Shown: in pieces, positions 9,253 to 30,320 of the stretch
Numbering within the stretch: position 1 is the first letter of the stretch
How the letters are laid out: each line of letters starts with the position of its first letter
DNA from: Acidobacteria bacterium RBG_13_68_16
GTDB lineage: Bacteria > Acidobacteriota > Thermoanaerobaculia > Thermoanaerobaculales > Thermoanaerobaculaceae
Direction: 5' to 3'
DNA length: 34,381 nt
Assembly (NCBI GenBank): GCA_001766905.1
Contig: MEKI01000084.1
Location: 1-34,381 of the forward strand
The notes under the pieces: generated by a model
What the model was told of the DNA's origin: nothing
What the model saw: the letters and a program-made list of their open reading frames with translations, nothing else
Databases searched by the model: none
Translations under genes and position numbers: made by a program

Positions 9253-9268
9253 TGGCGCGACTTTTGCA
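9253..9268 (+). promoter_or_regulatory. Candidate sigma-54 promoter of first prepilin gene
   Basis: TGGCGC-GACTT-TTGCA (consensus TGGCAC-N5-TTGCW, one mismatch); -24 GG and -12 GC correctly spaced. Confidence 0.65.
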
Positions 9269-9282
9269 TTTCTTTAGGGCTA

Positions 9283-9735
9283 ATGAGACAAGCAAACCGC
9301 GGTTTCACCCTGATTGAGCTCTTGATCGTGGTCGCCATCATAGGGATCATCGCGGCGATCGCGATCCCCGGCCTCACCTCGGCGATCCAGCGCGCGCGCC
9401 AAAAGCGGACGATGGTGGAGCTGCGTACCGTGGCGACTGCCGTCTCGAGCTACGCCACCGACTTTGCCTACGTTCCCAGGGTCCCCACGGGAGTGGTCGA
9501 AGACCTCACCCCGTACCTTGCCCCGACCTACCTCAAGGTCCTCCCCTACCTGGATGGCTGGCGGCGCTCTATGCTGTACAATTCAGAGGGGCTTAACTAC
9601 ACCGTGCGCAGCAACGGCAGCGACGGGCTCATGCAGCCGGGTCCACCGATGGGCCCCACGACGAGCTACGCCGACGACATGGTGATGGTGAACGGGGTGT
9701 TCGTGCAGTGGCCGGACGGGATGCAGGTGAACTGA
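9283..9735 (+). CDS. Type IV pilin / GspG-like (pseudo)pilin precursor, copy 1
   Basis: Class III prepilin leader MRQANRG|FTLIELLIVVAIIGIIAAIAIPGLTSAIQRARQKRTMVELRTVATAVSSYATDF. Confidence 0.93.
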   Translation: MRQANRGFTLIELLIVVAIIGIIAAIAIPGLTSAIQRARQKRTMVELRTVATAVSSYATDFAYVPRVPTGVVEDLTPYLAPTYLKVLPYLDGWRRSMLYNSEGLNYTVRSNGSDGLMQPGPPMGPTTSYADDMVMVNGVFVQWPDGMQVN

Positions 9736-9813
9736 TGTGCCGTGTGGTGGCATTCTGCGGGTTCGGTGGTGACGCTGGGCGTCATCGCCGGGGGCGGCAA
9801 GAGGACGGTTCAG

Positions 9814-9829
9814 TGGCACGGTACTTGCT
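9814..9829 (+). promoter_or_regulatory. Sigma-54 promoter of second prepilin gene
   Basis: TGGCACGGTACTTGCT: perfect match to TGGCACRNNNNTTGCW with correct -24/-12 spacing; predicted leader contains AAGGAGG before ATG 9858. Confidence 0.88.
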
Positions 9830-9845
9830 TTTGATGTGAGTCGAC

Positions 9846-9852
9846 AAGGAGG
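9846..9852 (+). promoter_or_regulatory. Strong Shine-Dalgarno for second prepilin
   Basis: AAGGAGG, 5 nt before ATG 9858. Confidence 0.8.
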
Positions 9853-9857
9853 AGCGT

Positions 9858-10313
9858 ATGAAAAGGCAAAAGGGTTTCACACTGATTGAGTTGCTCATCG
9901 TGGTCGCGATCATCGGCATCATCGCGGCGATCGCGATCCCCAACCTGCTGAACGCCATCAACCGTGGCCGGCAGAAGAGGACGATGAGCGACATCCGGAG
10001 CATCGCGACCGCTCTGGAAGCCTACTCGGTGGACTTCAACTTCTACCCGAAGGGCCTCTCAACTGGAGTTGTGACCCAACTGACGACCTACGTCATGCCC
10101 ACGTTCATCAAACGGCTGCCGACGAACGATGGGTGGAACCAGGCTCTTCAGTTGGACATGGAAACCGCTGGTCAGAGCTACACCATCTGGTCGTTGGCCA
10201 AGGGCGGCACGGGCGCGGTCGGGACCGGTGGCCCGAAGACGGACTTCGCGGACGCCATCGTGTTTTCGAACGGCCAGTTCTACGCCTGGCCCGAAGGCAT
10301 GCAGACCAACTGA
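9858..10313 (+). CDS. Type IV pilin / GspG-like (pseudo)pilin precursor, copy 2
   Basis: MKRQKG|FTLIELLIVVAIIGIIAAIAIPNLLNAINRGRQKRTMSDIRSIATALEAYSVDFNFYPKG; C-terminus …FADAIVFSNGQFYAWPEGMQTN parallels copy 1 …YADDMVMVNGVFVQWPDGMQVN. Confidence 0.95.
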   Translation: MKRQKGFTLIELLIVVAIIGIIAAIAIPNLLNAINRGRQKRTMSDIRSIATALEAYSVDFNFYPKGLSTGVVTQLTTYVMPTFIKRLPTNDGWNQALQLDMETAGQSYTIWSLAKGGTGAVGTGGPKTDFADAIVFSNGQFYAWPEGMQTN

Positions 10314-10336: not shown

Positions 10337-10359
10337 GGGGGACGCAAGTCCCCCTTTTT
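10337..10359 (+). terminator. Intrinsic (rho-independent) terminator after prepilin copy 2
   Basis: GGGGGAC-GCAA-GTCCCCC-TTTTT: perfect 7-bp stem, GNRA (GCAA) tetraloop, T-tract. Confidence 0.88.
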
Positions 10360-24168: not shown

Positions 24169-25319
24169 AGCCGCTGCGGGTGATGCACGCAATCACGATG
24201 CTGGAGCTGGGCGGGGCCCAGCGCAACACCGTCGACACCGTGGCCTCACTCGACCGGGGCGAGTTCGCCGTCGCCCTTGCGTGTGCCGACGAGGGCGAGC
24301 TGCTCGCGGAAGCGCGAGCGCTACCCGATGCCGACCTCTTCGAGCTGCGCCACCTGCGGCGCGAGGTGCGGCCGCTGGCCGACGTTCGGGCGCTCTTCGA
24401 GCTTCGGCGTGCAATCCGCAGCTTCCGGCCGGAGATCGTGCACACCCACTCCTCCAAGGCCGGGATCCTCGGGCGCCTGGCGGCCCGTCGTGAGGGCGTG
24501 CCGGTCGTGATCCACTCGATCCACGGCTTCGGCTTCGGGCCGCATCAACCCCTGCCGGTGCGCATCGCGTTCCTCGCCGCCGAGCGGCTGGCTTCGCGCT
24601 GGACGACAGCGTTCGTCGCGGTGTCGCGACGTAACCTCGAGGATGGCGTTCGACTGGGGCTTTTCCCTGCCTCGCGCGCGCGTGTGATCCGTTCCGGGGT
24701 CGACCTGGAGTCGTTCGCTGGACACCGGGGCGGCGGTGCGCTGAGGGAGGAACTCGGTATCCCGGTCGGTGCTCCGCTGGTGGTGCAGATCGCGTGCTTC
24801 AAGCCGCAGAAGGCGCCGGAGCGCTTCGTCGAGGTCGCGGCGCGTCTGGCGCCCCGATTCCCCGCCGCGCACTTCCTGCTGGCCGGAGAGGGCACGCTGC
24901 GGCGGCGGCTGGAGCGCCTCCGGCGCCAGGCCGGCCTCGAGCGCCGCCTCCACCTTCCGGGGTGGAGGCGGGACGTGCCGGCGATCTACGACGCCGCCAC
25001 CGTCGTAACGCTTACCTCCCGCTTCGAGGGACTTCCGCGGGTGATAGTGGAAGCGCTGGCGGCCGGGGTTCCGGTGGTGGCGATGGCGGTGGATGGGGTA
25101 CCGGAGGTCGTGCGCGACGGGGAGAACGGTTTCCTCCTCGCGCCCGATGACGTCGCCGGTGTGGTGGAGCGCGTCGCGGAGATCCTCGCCGACGATGGGC
25201 TGCGGTCTCGGCTATCGGTGGGCGCGGCGAGCGGTCTGGAGGAGTTCGGGCGGGAGGCGATGGTGAGGCACCAGGAGGAGCTGTACCGGGAGCTGGCATG
25301 CCAGGCTGGTTTGCGATAG
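24165..25319 (+). CDS. Glycosyltransferase family 4
   Basis: RVMHAITMLELGGAQRNTVDTVASLDRGEF…IVHTHSSKAGILGRLAAR…IRSGVDLESF…FVEVAARLAPRFPAAHFLLAGEG…VTLTSRFEGLPRVIVEALAAGVPVVAMAVDGVPEVVRDGENGFLL. Confidence 0.93.
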   Translation: MKPLRVMHAITMLELGGAQRNTVDTVASLDRGEFAVALACADEGELLAEARALPDADLFELRHLRREVRPLADVRALFELRRAIRSFRPEIVHTHSSKAGILGRLAARREGVPVVIHSIHGFGFGPHQPLPVRIAFLAAERLASRWTTAFVAVSRRNLEDGVRLGLFPASRARVIRSGVDLESFAGHRGGGALREELGIPVGAPLVVQIACFKPQKAPERFVEVAARLAPRFPAAHFLLAGEGTLRRRLERLRRQAGLERRLHLPGWRRDVPAIYDAATVVTLTSRFEGLPRVIVEALAAGVPVVAMAVDGVPEVVRDGENGFLLAPDDVAGVVERVAEILADDGLRSRLSVGAASGLEEFGREAMVRHQEELYRELACQAGLR

Positions 25320-26071
25320 CCGTCACGGCCGCCTACGGGCTGGTTCTCGGGAGCTTTCTGAATGTGGTGATTTACCGCCTGCCGCGCGGAATGTCGCTGG
25401 TGCGGCCCGGCTCCCACTGCCCGGCGTGCGGGGCGGCGGTGCGGTGGTTCGACAACGTCCCGGTGTGGTCGTACCTGCTGCTCGGCGCGCGCTGCCGGAC
25501 CTGTCGGGCGGCTATCTCGCCACGCTACCCGCTCGTGGAGCTCGCGACCGGCTTCCTTGCCGTCGCGGTGGTCGCGCGGTTCGGCTTGACGTTGCTGGGC
25601 CTGGAGGCAATGCTGCTCGTGATGCTGCTGCTGCCGCTGGCGTTCATCGACCTGGAGCACCACCTGCTCCCGGACGTGCTGACGCTGCCCGGGATCGCCC
25701 TGGGTCTCGGCGGCTCGCTGGCAGGGGGGTTCGTGCCGCTCCTCGACTCGCTTGTCGGGGCGCTGGTCGGTGCGGCGGTACCGTACGCGGTGATCGTCGT
25801 CTACCGCTGGCTGCGGGGCGTCGAGGGGATGGGCCTCGGCGATGTCAAGCTGCTGGCCATGATCGGGGCGTTCCTGGGCTGGCGCGGCGTCCTCCTCACC
25901 CTTGGCCTGGCGGCCACCGCCGGTGCGCTCCTCGGCTTGACGCTGATCACGCTCGGCAAGGGAAGAAGGGACACCGAGTTGCCGTTCGGCACGTTCCTCG
26001 CGGGCGCCGCGACGGTCGTGCTCTTCGCCGGAGGAACTCTCCTCGTGCTGCTGGGGTGGGTGCGTCCGTGA
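25298..26071 (+). CDS. pilD: Prepilin peptidase (A24 family)
   Basis: GLVLGSFLNVVIYRLPRGMSLVRPGSHCPACGAAVRWFDNVPVWSYLLLGARCRTCRAAISPRYPLVEL, FIDLEHHLLPD, GLGDVKLLAMIGAFLGW; CxxC pairs and both catalytic Asp motifs present. Confidence 0.95.
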   Translation: MPGWFAIAVTAAYGLVLGSFLNVVIYRLPRGMSLVRPGSHCPACGAAVRWFDNVPVWSYLLLGARCRTCRAAISPRYPLVELATGFLAVAVVARFGLTLLGLEAMLLVMLLLPLAFIDLEHHLLPDVLTLPGIALGLGGSLAGGFVPLLDSLVGALVGAAVPYAVIVVYRWLRGVEGMGLGDVKLLAMIGAFLGWRGVLLTLGLAATAGALLGLTLITLGKGRRDTELPFGTFLAGAATVVLFAGGTLLVLLGWVRP

Positions 26072-27717
26072 CCAGCCGCCTGCCCTCACGTCGCTTCCGT
26101 GAAGCGCAGCTGCTGATCGGGGCCGCTCTCCTGATGCTGGTGGGAATGGTCGTCGTGGAGATGGTCGGGATGCTGGCCGTGGCGCGGTTGGTCGAGGACG
26201 AGGCCCGGCGCGCTTCCATTGCCTCCGCGCGCATGGTGGCCTCCCGCATCGCACGCGGCGAGTCGGCACGCTTCTCAGCGGCGCTCCGGCAGGAGGGCTG
26301 GGGTGTGGCGGTCCTGTTTGATGGCAGGGTCGTGGAGACCCTGGGTCAGGCGGGCCCATCCGAGCCGGCGTGGTGGCCGTGGGCGTCGCGTGAGGAGTGG
26401 GAGCGGGCCGGGCAGCAGGTGAAAGGATCGCTCGCCGGCGGGGGTGGACGGGTGTTTGTCGCCTACCAGCCGCTGGCCGACGGCCGCGTGGTGCGAACGG
26501 TGGTGCCAGTCTCAGGCGCCGGCACCATGGGGCGCCTGCGAGACGTGGGGGCGGCCCTCTCGCTGGTCGTGGCGGTAGGCGGGGGTCTGCTCGCCTGGGC
26601 GCTGATCGCCCGCGTGCTCGCCCCCTACCGCGAGCTGCTGGCCGAGGCGGCGCGGATCACCCGAAGGCCCGGCGACGAGGCCGAGGACCACTTCCTGGTG
26701 GAGACTTTCCGCGACACCGTCCGGCGCCTCGAGGTCTCGGAGGCGGCGTTGCGCCGGCGTGCCGACGAGCTGGAGGTGCTGGCGGAGGTGCTGACGCGCG
26801 GGTCCGCCGCCGGCGTGGTGATCACCGACCCCGGGGGCATCGTGCGGGCCGCCAACACCGCGGCGGTCGAACTCGTCCCGGCCCTGGTTGTCGGGGCAGC
26901 GCTCCCGGTGACGCTGGCCGGGGGTGAGCAGAGCAGGCGTTTGGGGGAGCGGGTGATGGAGGCACGGCGGCTCGCCTTGCTGGCCGACAGCGGAGCAACC
27001 CAGGGCGAGGTCCTTTTCCTCACCGACCGCACCGCCGTGGAGGCGCTCGAGCGGGCCCTCGCGGAGCGCGAGCAGATGGCGGCGCTCGGCGAGCTGGCGG
27101 CGGGGATGACCCACGAGCTGCGCAACGCCCTCGCCACGATGCGCGGCTACCTGCGGCTGCTCCCCGACGCAGTACGCGAGGATCGGGCCCGTTTTGTGGC
27201 CGCCATCAACGACGAGGCGGAGGGCCTGGCCGAACTGCTGGACCGTTTTCTGCGGTTTGCCCAACCGCGCGAGCTGCGGCGCGAGCCGGTCGAGCTGCTG
27301 GCTCTCGTCGAAGAAGCGGCGCGCAAGGTGCGCACGGCGTTTCCCGATATCACCCTCGGCGTGGAGGGTGTGCCGGTCACCACTGTCGGCGACGCGCTGG
27401 CGCTGGGCGTGGTCGTGGAGAACCTGCTGCGCAACGCAGCCGAGGCGGTGGCGCACCAAGGCGGCTCCGTGTCGGCGCGAGTTGAGGGTCCGCCCGGCCT
27501 GGCCCGTATCGTCGTCGACGACGACGGACCCGGGGTGAGCGAGGAGCTGCGGGGCAGGCTGTTTCTGCCGTTCGCCTCCAGCAAAGCATCGGGCGGTCTC
27601 GGCCTTGCCCTCGCGCGGCGCTTCGCGCGCCTGCACGGGGGCGATGTTGTCCACGAAGCGCGGCCCGGGGGTGGCTCGCGGTTCCTGGTGTGGTTGCCCC
27701 GTCAGGGGGTCGCTTGA
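26068..27717 (+). CDS. Sensor histidine kinase (NtrB/PilS-like)
   Basis: GTG start; two TM segments, H-box MTHELRNALATMRGYLRLL, N-box ENLLRNAAEAV, G-boxes VDDDGPGVSEELRGRLFLPFASSKASGGLGLALARRFARLHGG. Confidence 0.92.
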   Translation: MTSRLPSRRFREAQLLIGAALLMLVGMVVVEMVGMLAVARLVEDEARRASIASARMVASRIARGESARFSAALRQEGWGVAVLFDGRVVETLGQAGPSEPAWWPWASREEWERAGQQVKGSLAGGGGRVFVAYQPLADGRVVRTVVPVSGAGTMGRLRDVGAALSLVVAVGGGLLAWALIARVLAPYRELLAEAARITRRPGDEAEDHFLVETFRDTVRRLEVSEAALRRRADELEVLAEVLTRGSAAGVVITDPGGIVRAANTAAVELVPALVVGAALPVTLAGGEQSRRLGERVMEARRLALLADSGATQGEVLFLTDRTAVEALERALAEREQMAALGELAAGMTHELRNALATMRGYLRLLPDAVREDRARFVAAINDEAEGLAELLDRFLRFAQPRELRREPVELLALVEEAARKVRTAFPDITLGVEGVPVTTVGDALALGVVVENLLRNAAEAVAHQGGSVSARVEGPPGLARIVVDDDGPGVSEELRGRLFLPFASSKASGGLGLALARRFARLHGGDVVHEARPGGGSRFLVWLPRQGVA

Positions 27718-28979
27718 GCGCGCCGCTCCTCGTGGTGGAGGACCGTCGCAGCCTGGGGGAGATGCTGGCCGAGACGCTGCGCACCGAGGGATACGAGGTC
27801 GAGCTGGTGCTGCGGGGCGACACCGCGGTCCAGCGTCTCCGGGAGGGCGGTCCATACCTGGCGGTGCTCACCGACCTCAAGCTCCCGGGGATGGACGGTC
27901 TGGCGGTGCTGCACACCGCCCGAACCGTAGATCCCCTGCTCCCGGTATTCCTGATCACCGGGTACGCCACGGTGGAGACGGCGGTGACGGCGCTCAAGCA
28001 GGGGGCGCGGGACTACTTCCCCAAGCCCCTCGACATGGAGCGCGTTCTGGAGGGTCTGCGCGCGGCCTGCGAGCCGCGGCGCACCCTGCTCGAGGTCCCG
28101 CCGACTGGCGAGGGGCTCCCCGAGTTGGTGGGCACCGCCCCGGCGTTCGTCGGCGCGGTGACCGCGCTCCGCCGCGTGGCGCCGACCGACGCGGCGGTGC
28201 TTCTGCTCGGAGCCTCGGGAAGCGGGAAGGAACTTTTCGCGCGCGCCCTCCACCAGCTGTCGCGGCGGCGGAATGGACCCTGTGTGGCCTTCAACTGCGC
28301 GGCGGTGCCCGAGAGCCTGGTGGAGTCGGAGCTGTTCGGCCACGAACGCGGCGCGTTCACCGGCGCTAACACCCGCCACATCGGGCGCTTCGAGCAGGCC
28401 CACGCCGGTACCCTCTTCCTCGACGAGGTCGGGGAGGTCCCCCTCTCGACGCAGGCCAAGCTCCTGCGCGCGCTCGAGGAGCACCACATCACCCGCCTTG
28501 GCGGTGAAGGTGAGATCGTCGTGGACGTGCGGGTCGTGGCCGCGTCCAACCGCAACCTCGAGGAAGCGGTCATCGGAGGCTCGTTTCGCCGCGACCTCTT
28601 CCACCGCCTGAACGTCTTCCCGATTCAACTGCCGGCCCTCATCGAGCGCCGCGAGGACATCCCGGCGCTGACCCTCCACCTATTGACGCGCGCGGGTGCC
28701 CGCCACGGGGTCCCGGTGCCGGCGCTGCGGCCGGCGGCGATGGGGGCGCTCGTGCTCGCACCTTGGCCCGGAAACGTGCGCGAGCTCGCCAACCTGCTGG
28801 AGCGAGTTGTAATCCTGGCGGAGGGCCGCGCGGTGGGGGTTGCCGAGCTGGGGCTCGATCCGGCAGAGTGTCGTGAGGGTCTAACGGAGGGGGCCGCCCG
28901 GCGCCTGGCCGTGCGCCTCGCGGGGGGAGACACCGGGGAGCTGGCCGCGTTCCTGGGCGTCTCCGTGGCCCAGTTGTAG
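27714..28979 (+). CDS. Sigma-54-dependent response regulator (NtrC/PilR-like), C-terminal HTH apparently truncated
   Basis: Receiver: LLVVEDRRSLGEML, AVLTDLKLPGMDGL, LITGYA, YFPKPLD; AAA+: LGASGSGKELFARALHQLS, ELFGHERGAFTGANTRHIGRFEQAHAGTLFLDEVGEVPLSTQAKLLRALEEHHITRLGG; ends …RRLAVRLAGGDTGELAAFLGVSVAQL*. TTG start overlapping the kinase stop. Confidence 0.93.
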   Translation: MSAPLLVVEDRRSLGEMLAETLRTEGYEVELVLRGDTAVQRLREGGPYLAVLTDLKLPGMDGLAVLHTARTVDPLLPVFLITGYATVETAVTALKQGARDYFPKPLDMERVLEGLRAACEPRRTLLEVPPTGEGLPELVGTAPAFVGAVTALRRVAPTDAAVLLLGASGSGKELFARALHQLSRRRNGPCVAFNCAAVPESLVESELFGHERGAFTGANTRHIGRFEQAHAGTLFLDEVGEVPLSTQAKLLRALEEHHITRLGGEGEIVVDVRVVAASNRNLEEAVIGGSFRRDLFHRLNVFPIQLPALIERREDIPALTLHLLTRAGARHGVPVPALRPAAMGALVLAPWPGNVRELANLLERVVILAEGRAVGVAELGLDPAECREGLTEGAARRLAVRLAGGDTGELAAFLGVSVAQL

Positions 28980-28982
28980 CCG

Positions 28983-30320
28983 CTAGCTCCGAAGCGCCTC
29001 GAGCAGCGCGCGCCGCAGGTGGCGGTCGTGCTCCGGGGGCACCGCGCGCAGGTCAAGCATTACCCTGCCCTCCTCGACGCGCCCGATAACCGGAGGCGTC
29101 GCTCTCCGCAGTCTGGCCGCAGTGGCGTCGCCGCCCGCGAGCGCGATGCCCCACGAAGGGAGTGTCTGATCCGGGGTGGTTCCGCCGCCGAGCACCGCCC
29201 GGGTGGCCACCACCTCAGCCGGGACCCCGGCCGCATTCAGGCCGCGGGCCAAGCGCCGCGCGCGGGTCCGCAGCTCGGACTCCGGGAGTGCGAGCAGCCG
29301 GTAGAGCGGCACCGTCTCTGGCCGGTCCGCCAGGTAGGCATCGAGAGTAATGGCCAGGGTGACGAGGGCGCTCTTGTCCGGGCGCAGCGCCCGCCGAAGG
29401 GGGTGGCGGCGCAGGGGGGCGATGGTCGTACGGTTTCCCAGCATCACACCAGCCTGCGGTCCTGCAAGCAGCTTGTCGCCGGAGAACAGCACCGCATCCG
29501 CACCGAGTGCCAGGATCTCCTGCACGGTGGGCTCGCGGCGGAGACCGTAGCGCGAAAGGTCAAGGTGGCACCCCGAGCCCTCGTCCACCCAGAGCGGCAC
29601 CCCGCGGGCGTGCGCCAGCTCGACGAGATCGCGGAGCTCGGGGGTGGCGACGAACCCCTGGAGGTGGAAGTTGGAGCGGTGAACGACTAGGATTCCTGCC
29701 GTGTCGCCACCCACGGCACGCGCGTAGTCCTCGGTGCGGGTGCGGTTGGTGCACCCGACCTCCACCAGCCGGGCGCCGGCCGCGGCCATGATCTCGGGCA
29801 GCCGGAACGAGCCGCCGATCTCGATGAGTTCCCCACGCGAGACGATCACCTCGCGGCCAGGGGCATGGGCGGCGAGCAGCAGCACCAGCGCCGCCGCGTT
29901 GTTGGTGACGACCGTGGCGGCCTCGGCACCAAAGTAGCGAGTCAGACGCCCCACGACTGGGGCAAGCCTCTCGCCCCGGGCGCCTGCGTCCAGGTCGTAC
30001 TCGAGGGCCAGGTAACCTGACACGTCGGCGGGGAGGCGCGGCGCGCGCCCCAGGTTGGTGTGGATCAGGACACCGGTGGCGTTGAGGACCCCGGGGTAGG
30101 CGGCCGACTCGCGACGGGCCAGCAGCGCCCTCGCCTCCGCCACCAGGGCAGGCGACGCGGGCGTCGGCTCCCCCTGCGCCACACGCCGCCTGGCCTCCGC
30201 CAGGACCTCGCGCACCGCTGCCCGCACGGTCGCTGCGCCATAGCGCTCGCGCGCCTGCCGTAGGTGCTCCTCGGCCAGGAGGCGATGAACGGCGGGGAGC
30301 CCTGCGAGAGGGTTGGCCAT
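28983..30320 (-). CDS. selA: L-seryl-tRNA(Sec) selenium transferase
   Basis: AYPGVLNATGVLIHTNLGRAPL-type motif (VLNATGVLIHTNLGRAPRLP), VVTNNAAALVLLLAAHAPGREVIVSRGELIEIGGSFRLPEIM, VGCTNRTRTEDYA, DEGSGCHLDLS, FSGDKLLAGPQAGVMLG (PLP lysine), LPSWGIALAG. Confidence 0.95.
   Translation of the reverse strand: MANPLAGLPAVHRLLAEEHLRQARERYGAATVRAAVREVLAEARRRVAQGEPTPASPALVAEARALLARRESAAYPGVLNATGVLIHTNLGRAPRLPADVSGYLALEYDLDAGARGERLAPVVGRLTRYFGAEAATVVTNNAAALVLLLAAHAPGREVIVSRGELIEIGGSFRLPEIMAAAGARLVEVGCTNRTRTEDYARAVGGDTAGILVVHRSNFHLQGFVATPELRDLVELAHARGVPLWVDEGSGCHLDLSRYGLRREPTVQEILALGADAVLFSGDKLLAGPQAGVMLGNRTTIAPLRRHPLRRALRPDKSALVTLAITLDAYLADRPETVPLYRLLALPESELRTRARRLARGLNAAGVPAEVVATRAVLGGGTTPDQTLPSWGIALAGGDATAARLRRATPPVIGRVEEGRVMLDLRAVPPEHDRHLRRALLEALRS

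Follow-up and report, generated by a model that had tools for sequence, protein, structure and literature searches.

Conserved sigma-54 promoters before two neighbouring prepilin genes of an Acidobacteria genome, one with a probable enhancer and one with a predicted near-leaderless message

The window analysed here, the whole stretch of 34,381 nucleotides from Acidobacteria bacterium RBG_13_68_16 (contig MEKI01000084.1, assembly GCA_001766905.1), carries two prepilin genes side by side, called A and B below, and a distant cluster with a prepilin peptidase, a sensor histidine kinase and a sigma-54 activator (Table 1). A and B share the N-terminal methylation motif and a T2SSG-like domain with the pilins that have a GspG-type domain (PF08334, TIGR01710). 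Prepilin B is not filed as GspG, because its score of 71 bits falls below the equivalog cut-off of 88.85 bits. Among solved sequences, geopilin domain 1 and GspG come nearest. Named organisms in which the pilin has its closest relatives are Thermoanaerobaculaceae and other Acidobacteriota, which points to an acidobacterial origin of the window, probably in class Thermoanaerobaculia.

Table 1. Features of the two prepilin genes and of the regulatory genes beside pilD in the window.
Feature	Positions	Strand	Sequence	Remarks
Sigma-54 site of prepilin A	9253..9268	+	TGGCGCGACTTTTGCA	1 mismatch; 14 nt before ATG 9283
Prepilin A	9283..9735	+		150 aa; paralogue of B; mRNA predicted near-leaderless, without usable SD
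Distal, weaker dyad copy	9736..9754	+	TGTGCCGTGTGGTGGCATT	32 bp further upstream than the proximal dyad; 5 mismatches in the window
Proximal enhancer-like dyad	9768..9786	+	GGTGACGCTGGGCGTCATC	core TGACG-N5-CGTCA at 9770-9784; fixed position in orthologues
Sigma-54 (-24/-12) site of prepilin B	9814..9829	+	TGGCACGGTACTTGCT	exact consensus match; kept in 29/29 distinct orthologues
Predicted leader of B	9840..9857	+	GTCGACAAGGAGGAGCGT	18 nt; read from sequence, start site inferred
Prepilin B	9858..10313	+		151 aa; N_methyl and T2SSG-type domain; likely major pilin
Terminator-like hairpin with T run, 3' of B	10337..10359	+	GGGGGACGCAAGTCCCCCTTTTT	read from sequence
Prepilin peptidase, PilD-type	25298..26071	+		Peptidase_A24
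Sensor histidine kinase, named PilS2	26068..27717	+		HisKA, HATPase_c; start approximate
Sigma-54 activator without DNA-binding HTH, named PilR2	27690..28979	+		receiver and AAA+; no HTH_8

The site before B lies 28 nt upstream of ATG 9858 and is the only exact consensus match in the window. With up to two mismatches allowed, 14 matches are found across the window against 11.8 expected, which is no enrichment, so the case for this site rests on its position and its conservation. Taking the GC of the site as -13/-12 puts the predicted start of transcription at G9840, and the leader that would result contains AAGGAGG at 9846-9852. The host genome (3.61 Mb, 91% complete) encodes one rpoN (PF04552, 1.7e-63) and holds 10 exact sigma-54 sites, as against 3 for a reversed-pattern control. 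Exact sites at L002, L003, L006, L008 and L010 of this genome fall shortly upstream of plausible gene starts, that at L003 preceding a gene for a signal-peptide protein, and these loci are likely further members of the sigma-54 regulon.

Orthologues of B, picked by protein similarity alone, were matched in 32 of the 37 genomes of the host's order. Every one of the 29 distinct genes has a sigma-54 site with at most two mismatches (0.18 in dinucleotide shuffles), and the site is exact in 15 of them, where shuffles lead one to expect 0.0; the genomes compared are related, and the orthologue counts are accordingly not independent of one another. The GG and the GC core are invariant, and the distance from site to ATG stays between 25 and 38 nt. 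The first-pass annotation had read an exact -24/-12 match as an RpoN-type promoter of B, had estimated a leader of about 18 nt with AAGGAGG before ATG 9858, and had named the presence of rpoN and conservation of the site before orthologous prepilins as checks; on all of these points its reading of B holds. It had overlooked the sigma-54 site of A and the dyad upstream of B, both described below. Among Aminicenantes relatives, TGGCA[A/T]-type sites are seen 33-37 nt before prepilins at L064-L067.

The region upstream of the B site contains an inverted repeat with the consensus AGTGACG-N5-CGTCACT. Allowing up to four mismatches, this dyad starts 45-47 nt before TGGCAC in 24 of 29 B orthologues, and a second copy is found at -77 to -79 in 13 of the 29 (0.22 in shuffles in either case). 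The copies are about 32 bp apart, near three helical turns. A combined pattern, in which the dyad is followed after 24-31 nt by a sigma-54 site, occurs in 20 of the 37 genomes of the order, once in each and always before B, with 0 control matches; 18 of these coincide by position with the B orthologues, and L167 and L180 turned out on reading to be B genes. A phylum-wide sample of 297 genomes yielded a similar pattern in just four, all from the host's order, and in none outside it. Prepilin B is thus preceded by a conserved dyad at a fixed distance, as befits the upstream activator site of a sigma-54 promoter, and the dyad is a probable enhancer. Its conservation calls for an activator that binds DNA. 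In genera g6 and g10 the dyad is decayed or missing, though the PilR-type regulator introduced below is kept there.

Two further observations concern the dyad elsewhere. Dyads of the form TGTGACAAAA[A/T]TTGTCAAA lie 76-78 nt upstream of the sigma-54 sites that precede prepilin genes in Aminicenantes (L065-L067), possibly the same enhancer with a slightly different half-site in a distant class. Perfect GTGACG-N5-CGTCAC palindromes also occur elsewhere in the host genome, at L150, L152, L153 and L155.

Prepilin A, too, is preceded by a sigma-54 site. The start codon of A is unambiguous, since there is no other start codon between ATG 9283 and the GFTLIE motif. With transcription starting 11 nt past the last base of the site, the predicted +1 falls near 9279 and the leader is predicted to be about 1-5 nt, so that no SD fits, and the A mRNA should be near-leaderless. 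The layout recurs: in 19 of 26 distinct A-type genes, some of which have uncertain start codons, an in-frame start follows 10-18 nt after a site with at most two mismatches, against 0.08 in shuffles that had the same freedom of start-codon choice as the real genes. In these 19, GG and TTGC are constant and the spacing, measured to the best-fitting start, is 12-16 nt with a mode of 13. In L024, L029, L097, L100 and L104 the 12-16 nt spacing is better matched by an in-frame start upstream or downstream of the nearest ATG. Absence of an SD from the leader together with conservation of the layout, as expected of a leaderless gene, is likewise seen in 19 of the 26. Six genes depart from the near-leaderless plan (L034, L040, L042, L102, L105 and L107), and L036 has a weaker site with 3 mismatches. 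No dyad at a fixed place was found in the 600 bp before or the 250 bp after the A-type genes; L042, grouped with A by sequence, does carry one. Both neighbouring pilin genes, then, have an evolutionarily conserved predicted sigma-54 promoter.

Near-leaderless messages are plausible in this lineage from two lines of evidence. In the loci examined, TANNNT boxes that end exactly 6 nt upstream of the codon are about 17-fold commoner at ATGs (10 of 372) than at other codons, and Zheng et al. predicted 13.3% leaderless genes for three Acidobacteria, using sigma-70 boxes only (PMC3160421). Like such leaderless genes, A has a predicted transcript that begins at or close to the start codon, with no room for an SD; it differs from them in its sigma-54 promoter and in a predicted leader of 1-5 nt rather than zero (PMC3160421). 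Three genes of the window have the TANNNT box 6 nt before their ATG, starting at 30320 (selA, minus strand), 9149 (minus) and 10438 (plus), and are probably leaderless; the box-to-ATG layout of selA recurs in several of its orthologues. In the open literature searched, outside which most subscription papers lie, no report was found of sigma-54 promoters giving leaderless messages, and the few papers found there that touch on both topics describe none. The unusual feature of A is therefore the sigma-54 type of its promoter and not the near-leaderless message itself.

Sigma-54 promoters always depend on an activator, and the host genome encodes 11 sigma-54 activators, ten besides PilR2. The first-pass annotation had pointed to a PilR-like activator in the window, with the implied role of PilR at the B promoter. 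The likeness extends to the receiver (PF00072) and to the AAA+ domain (PF00158) with its GAFTGA motif, both present in PilR2. It fails at the C terminus, where the Fis-type HTH (HTH_8) typical of PilR was not found in PilR2. In all 14 family orthologues the C terminus ends short at the expected recognition helix, and all 14 score about 0-9 bits with an HTH model, as against 30-114 for HTH-bearing activators (the mis-extracted row L136 is left out of this scoring). It also fails in the tree, which holds no PilR reference from outside and where PilR2 forms a long-branched clade of its own away from the PilR-type clade. An AAA+ sigma-54 domain without an HTH is instead the domain make-up of FlgR-type activators. 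Across the family (window 27690-28979, L118-L130) the activator has lost the HTH but kept the receiver and AAA+ domains, and in most genomes its gene stands beside pilD and a kinase gene. In the second family, f2, which keeps both promoter and dyad, PilR2 was not found, and no PilS/PilR pair was seen beside pilD.

Lacking an HTH, PilR2 is a poor candidate for the dyad; on this absence and the failure to find PilR2 in f2 it was rejected as the dyad-binding protein. The RpoN-type promoter of B is supported, and the role of PilR that had been implied for the window's activator is not. The best candidate for the protein that would bind the dyad is a PilR-type regulator on contig C151, whose gene directly follows a histidine kinase gene and which has an HTH_8 (7.9e-9); the activator is most likely this one. 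A single orthologue is present in each of 33 of the 37 genomes, by a search whose query started with MTR where the native protein has VSR. The recognition helix of the regulator, YRAFRYHAEK, is similar to that of known PilR proteins, and the name serves as a lead.

Comparison among relatives establishes both predicted sites, their spacing, the dyad and the conservation of all of these. It is very probable on these grounds that 9814-9829 is a functional promoter of B served by a dyad-bound activator and that A is transcribed from its own, near-leaderless sigma-54 promoter. A sensor kinase would phosphorylate a PilR-type activator with a Fis-type HTH, both as yet putative proteins in this role. 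The activator would bind TGACG-N5-CGTCA, whose centre is some 63 bp before the transcription start, and often also the second copy, some 32 bp farther out, and would remodel the sigma-54 polymerase waiting at 9814-9829. Transcription of B would begin near G9840, with translation from a strong SD. Prepilin A would be read from its own weaker sigma-54 promoter, which has no dyad, and with a leader of about 0-5 nt its translation must start without an SD. A weaker promoter with no enhancer and a near-leaderless message together suggest a low, co-regulated dose of A. From the promoters and the SD, B is probably the major and A the minor pilin. Along with the start sites and the identity of the activator, we infer this balance of little A and much B.

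How the enhancerless promoter of A obtains an activator allows of two suggestions. The B enhancer lies some 500 bp downstream of the A promoter and, in the window's family, might act on both genes; against a shared enhancer, A-type and B genes were found on different contigs in many f2 genomes. PilR2 might also act on A from solution, and here the A promoters of f2, where PilR2 was not found, argue against this as a general rule.

A broader version of the second suggestion, that PilR2 and its kinase regulate the pilin promoters directly from solution in the manner of FlgR of Helicobacter, appears unlikely. PilR2 is linked to the pilins and pilD in the window and shares a contig with pilins in several relatives, its HTH is missing from all family orthologues, and A-type promoters without a dyad would suit an activator that does not bind DNA. 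The same promoters nevertheless persist in f2, where PilR2 was not found, and the conserved dyad before B calls for an activator that binds DNA. An equally doubtful reading concerns A and would have it transcribed from an upstream sigma-70 promoter, with the sigma-54 polymerase parked over the start of A as a block or the site left as a relic. The A site is indeed the weaker of the two sites and is not accompanied by a dyad, but the constant GG and TTGC and the tight 12-16 nt spacing in the 19 matching genes, with 0.08 for the layout in shuffles, count against this reading. That the match at 9814-9829 arose by chance, as the want of window-wide enrichment at two mismatches or fewer might suggest, is contradicted by its conservation in 29 of 29 orthologues with a fixed dyad and has a negligible probability.

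The preferred reading, with a dyad-bound activator at B and a separate sigma-54 promoter at A, builds on well-known biology. Sigma-54 control of pili is established (PMC3162934, PMC2725144, PMC6058289), and pilA of Pseudomonas aeruginosa and of Geobacter sulfurreducens is under RpoN and PilS/PilR (PMC6058289, PMC2725144). The present locus has in common with these a -24/-12 sigma-54 pilin promoter and, in the genome, a PilR-type activator with a kinase partner. It differs from them in that each of its two paralogous pilin genes has one sigma-54 site, the TGACG-N5-CGTCA dyad stands at a fixed place and A is predicted to be near-leaderless; the PilR-type regulator and its kinase are encoded on a contig other than that of the window, whose own activator lacks an HTH. 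Activators without a DNA-binding domain are also known, namely FlgR of Helicobacter, CtcC of Chlamydia and FleT of Rhodobacter (PMC3162934). PilR2 is like them in its AAA+ domain with GAFTGA and receiver and in its missing HTH, and unlike them in its linkage to pilD and in a genome with ten other sigma-54 activators. Sigma-54 control of pilins is thus familiar, and what is new is this two-promoter architecture.

With these findings, sigma-54 control of pilins reaches into a phylum that has been little studied and is for the most part uncultured, and it does so with a very specific signature of enhancer and promoter. Prepilin A offers a concrete case in which sigma-54 seems to drive near-leaderless messages. 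It can be proposed, tentatively and at somewhat less than even chances, that the order possesses a class of promoters in which an activator-dependent, near-leaderless minor pilin sits beside an enhancer-driven, SD-led major pilin, so that sigma-54 would set the ratio of the two by the way in which translation of each begins; in such an arrangement PilR2 may act at the promoter that lacks an enhancer. Since A and B differ in this respect, a link between how translation starts and the ratio of the pilins can be tested directly.
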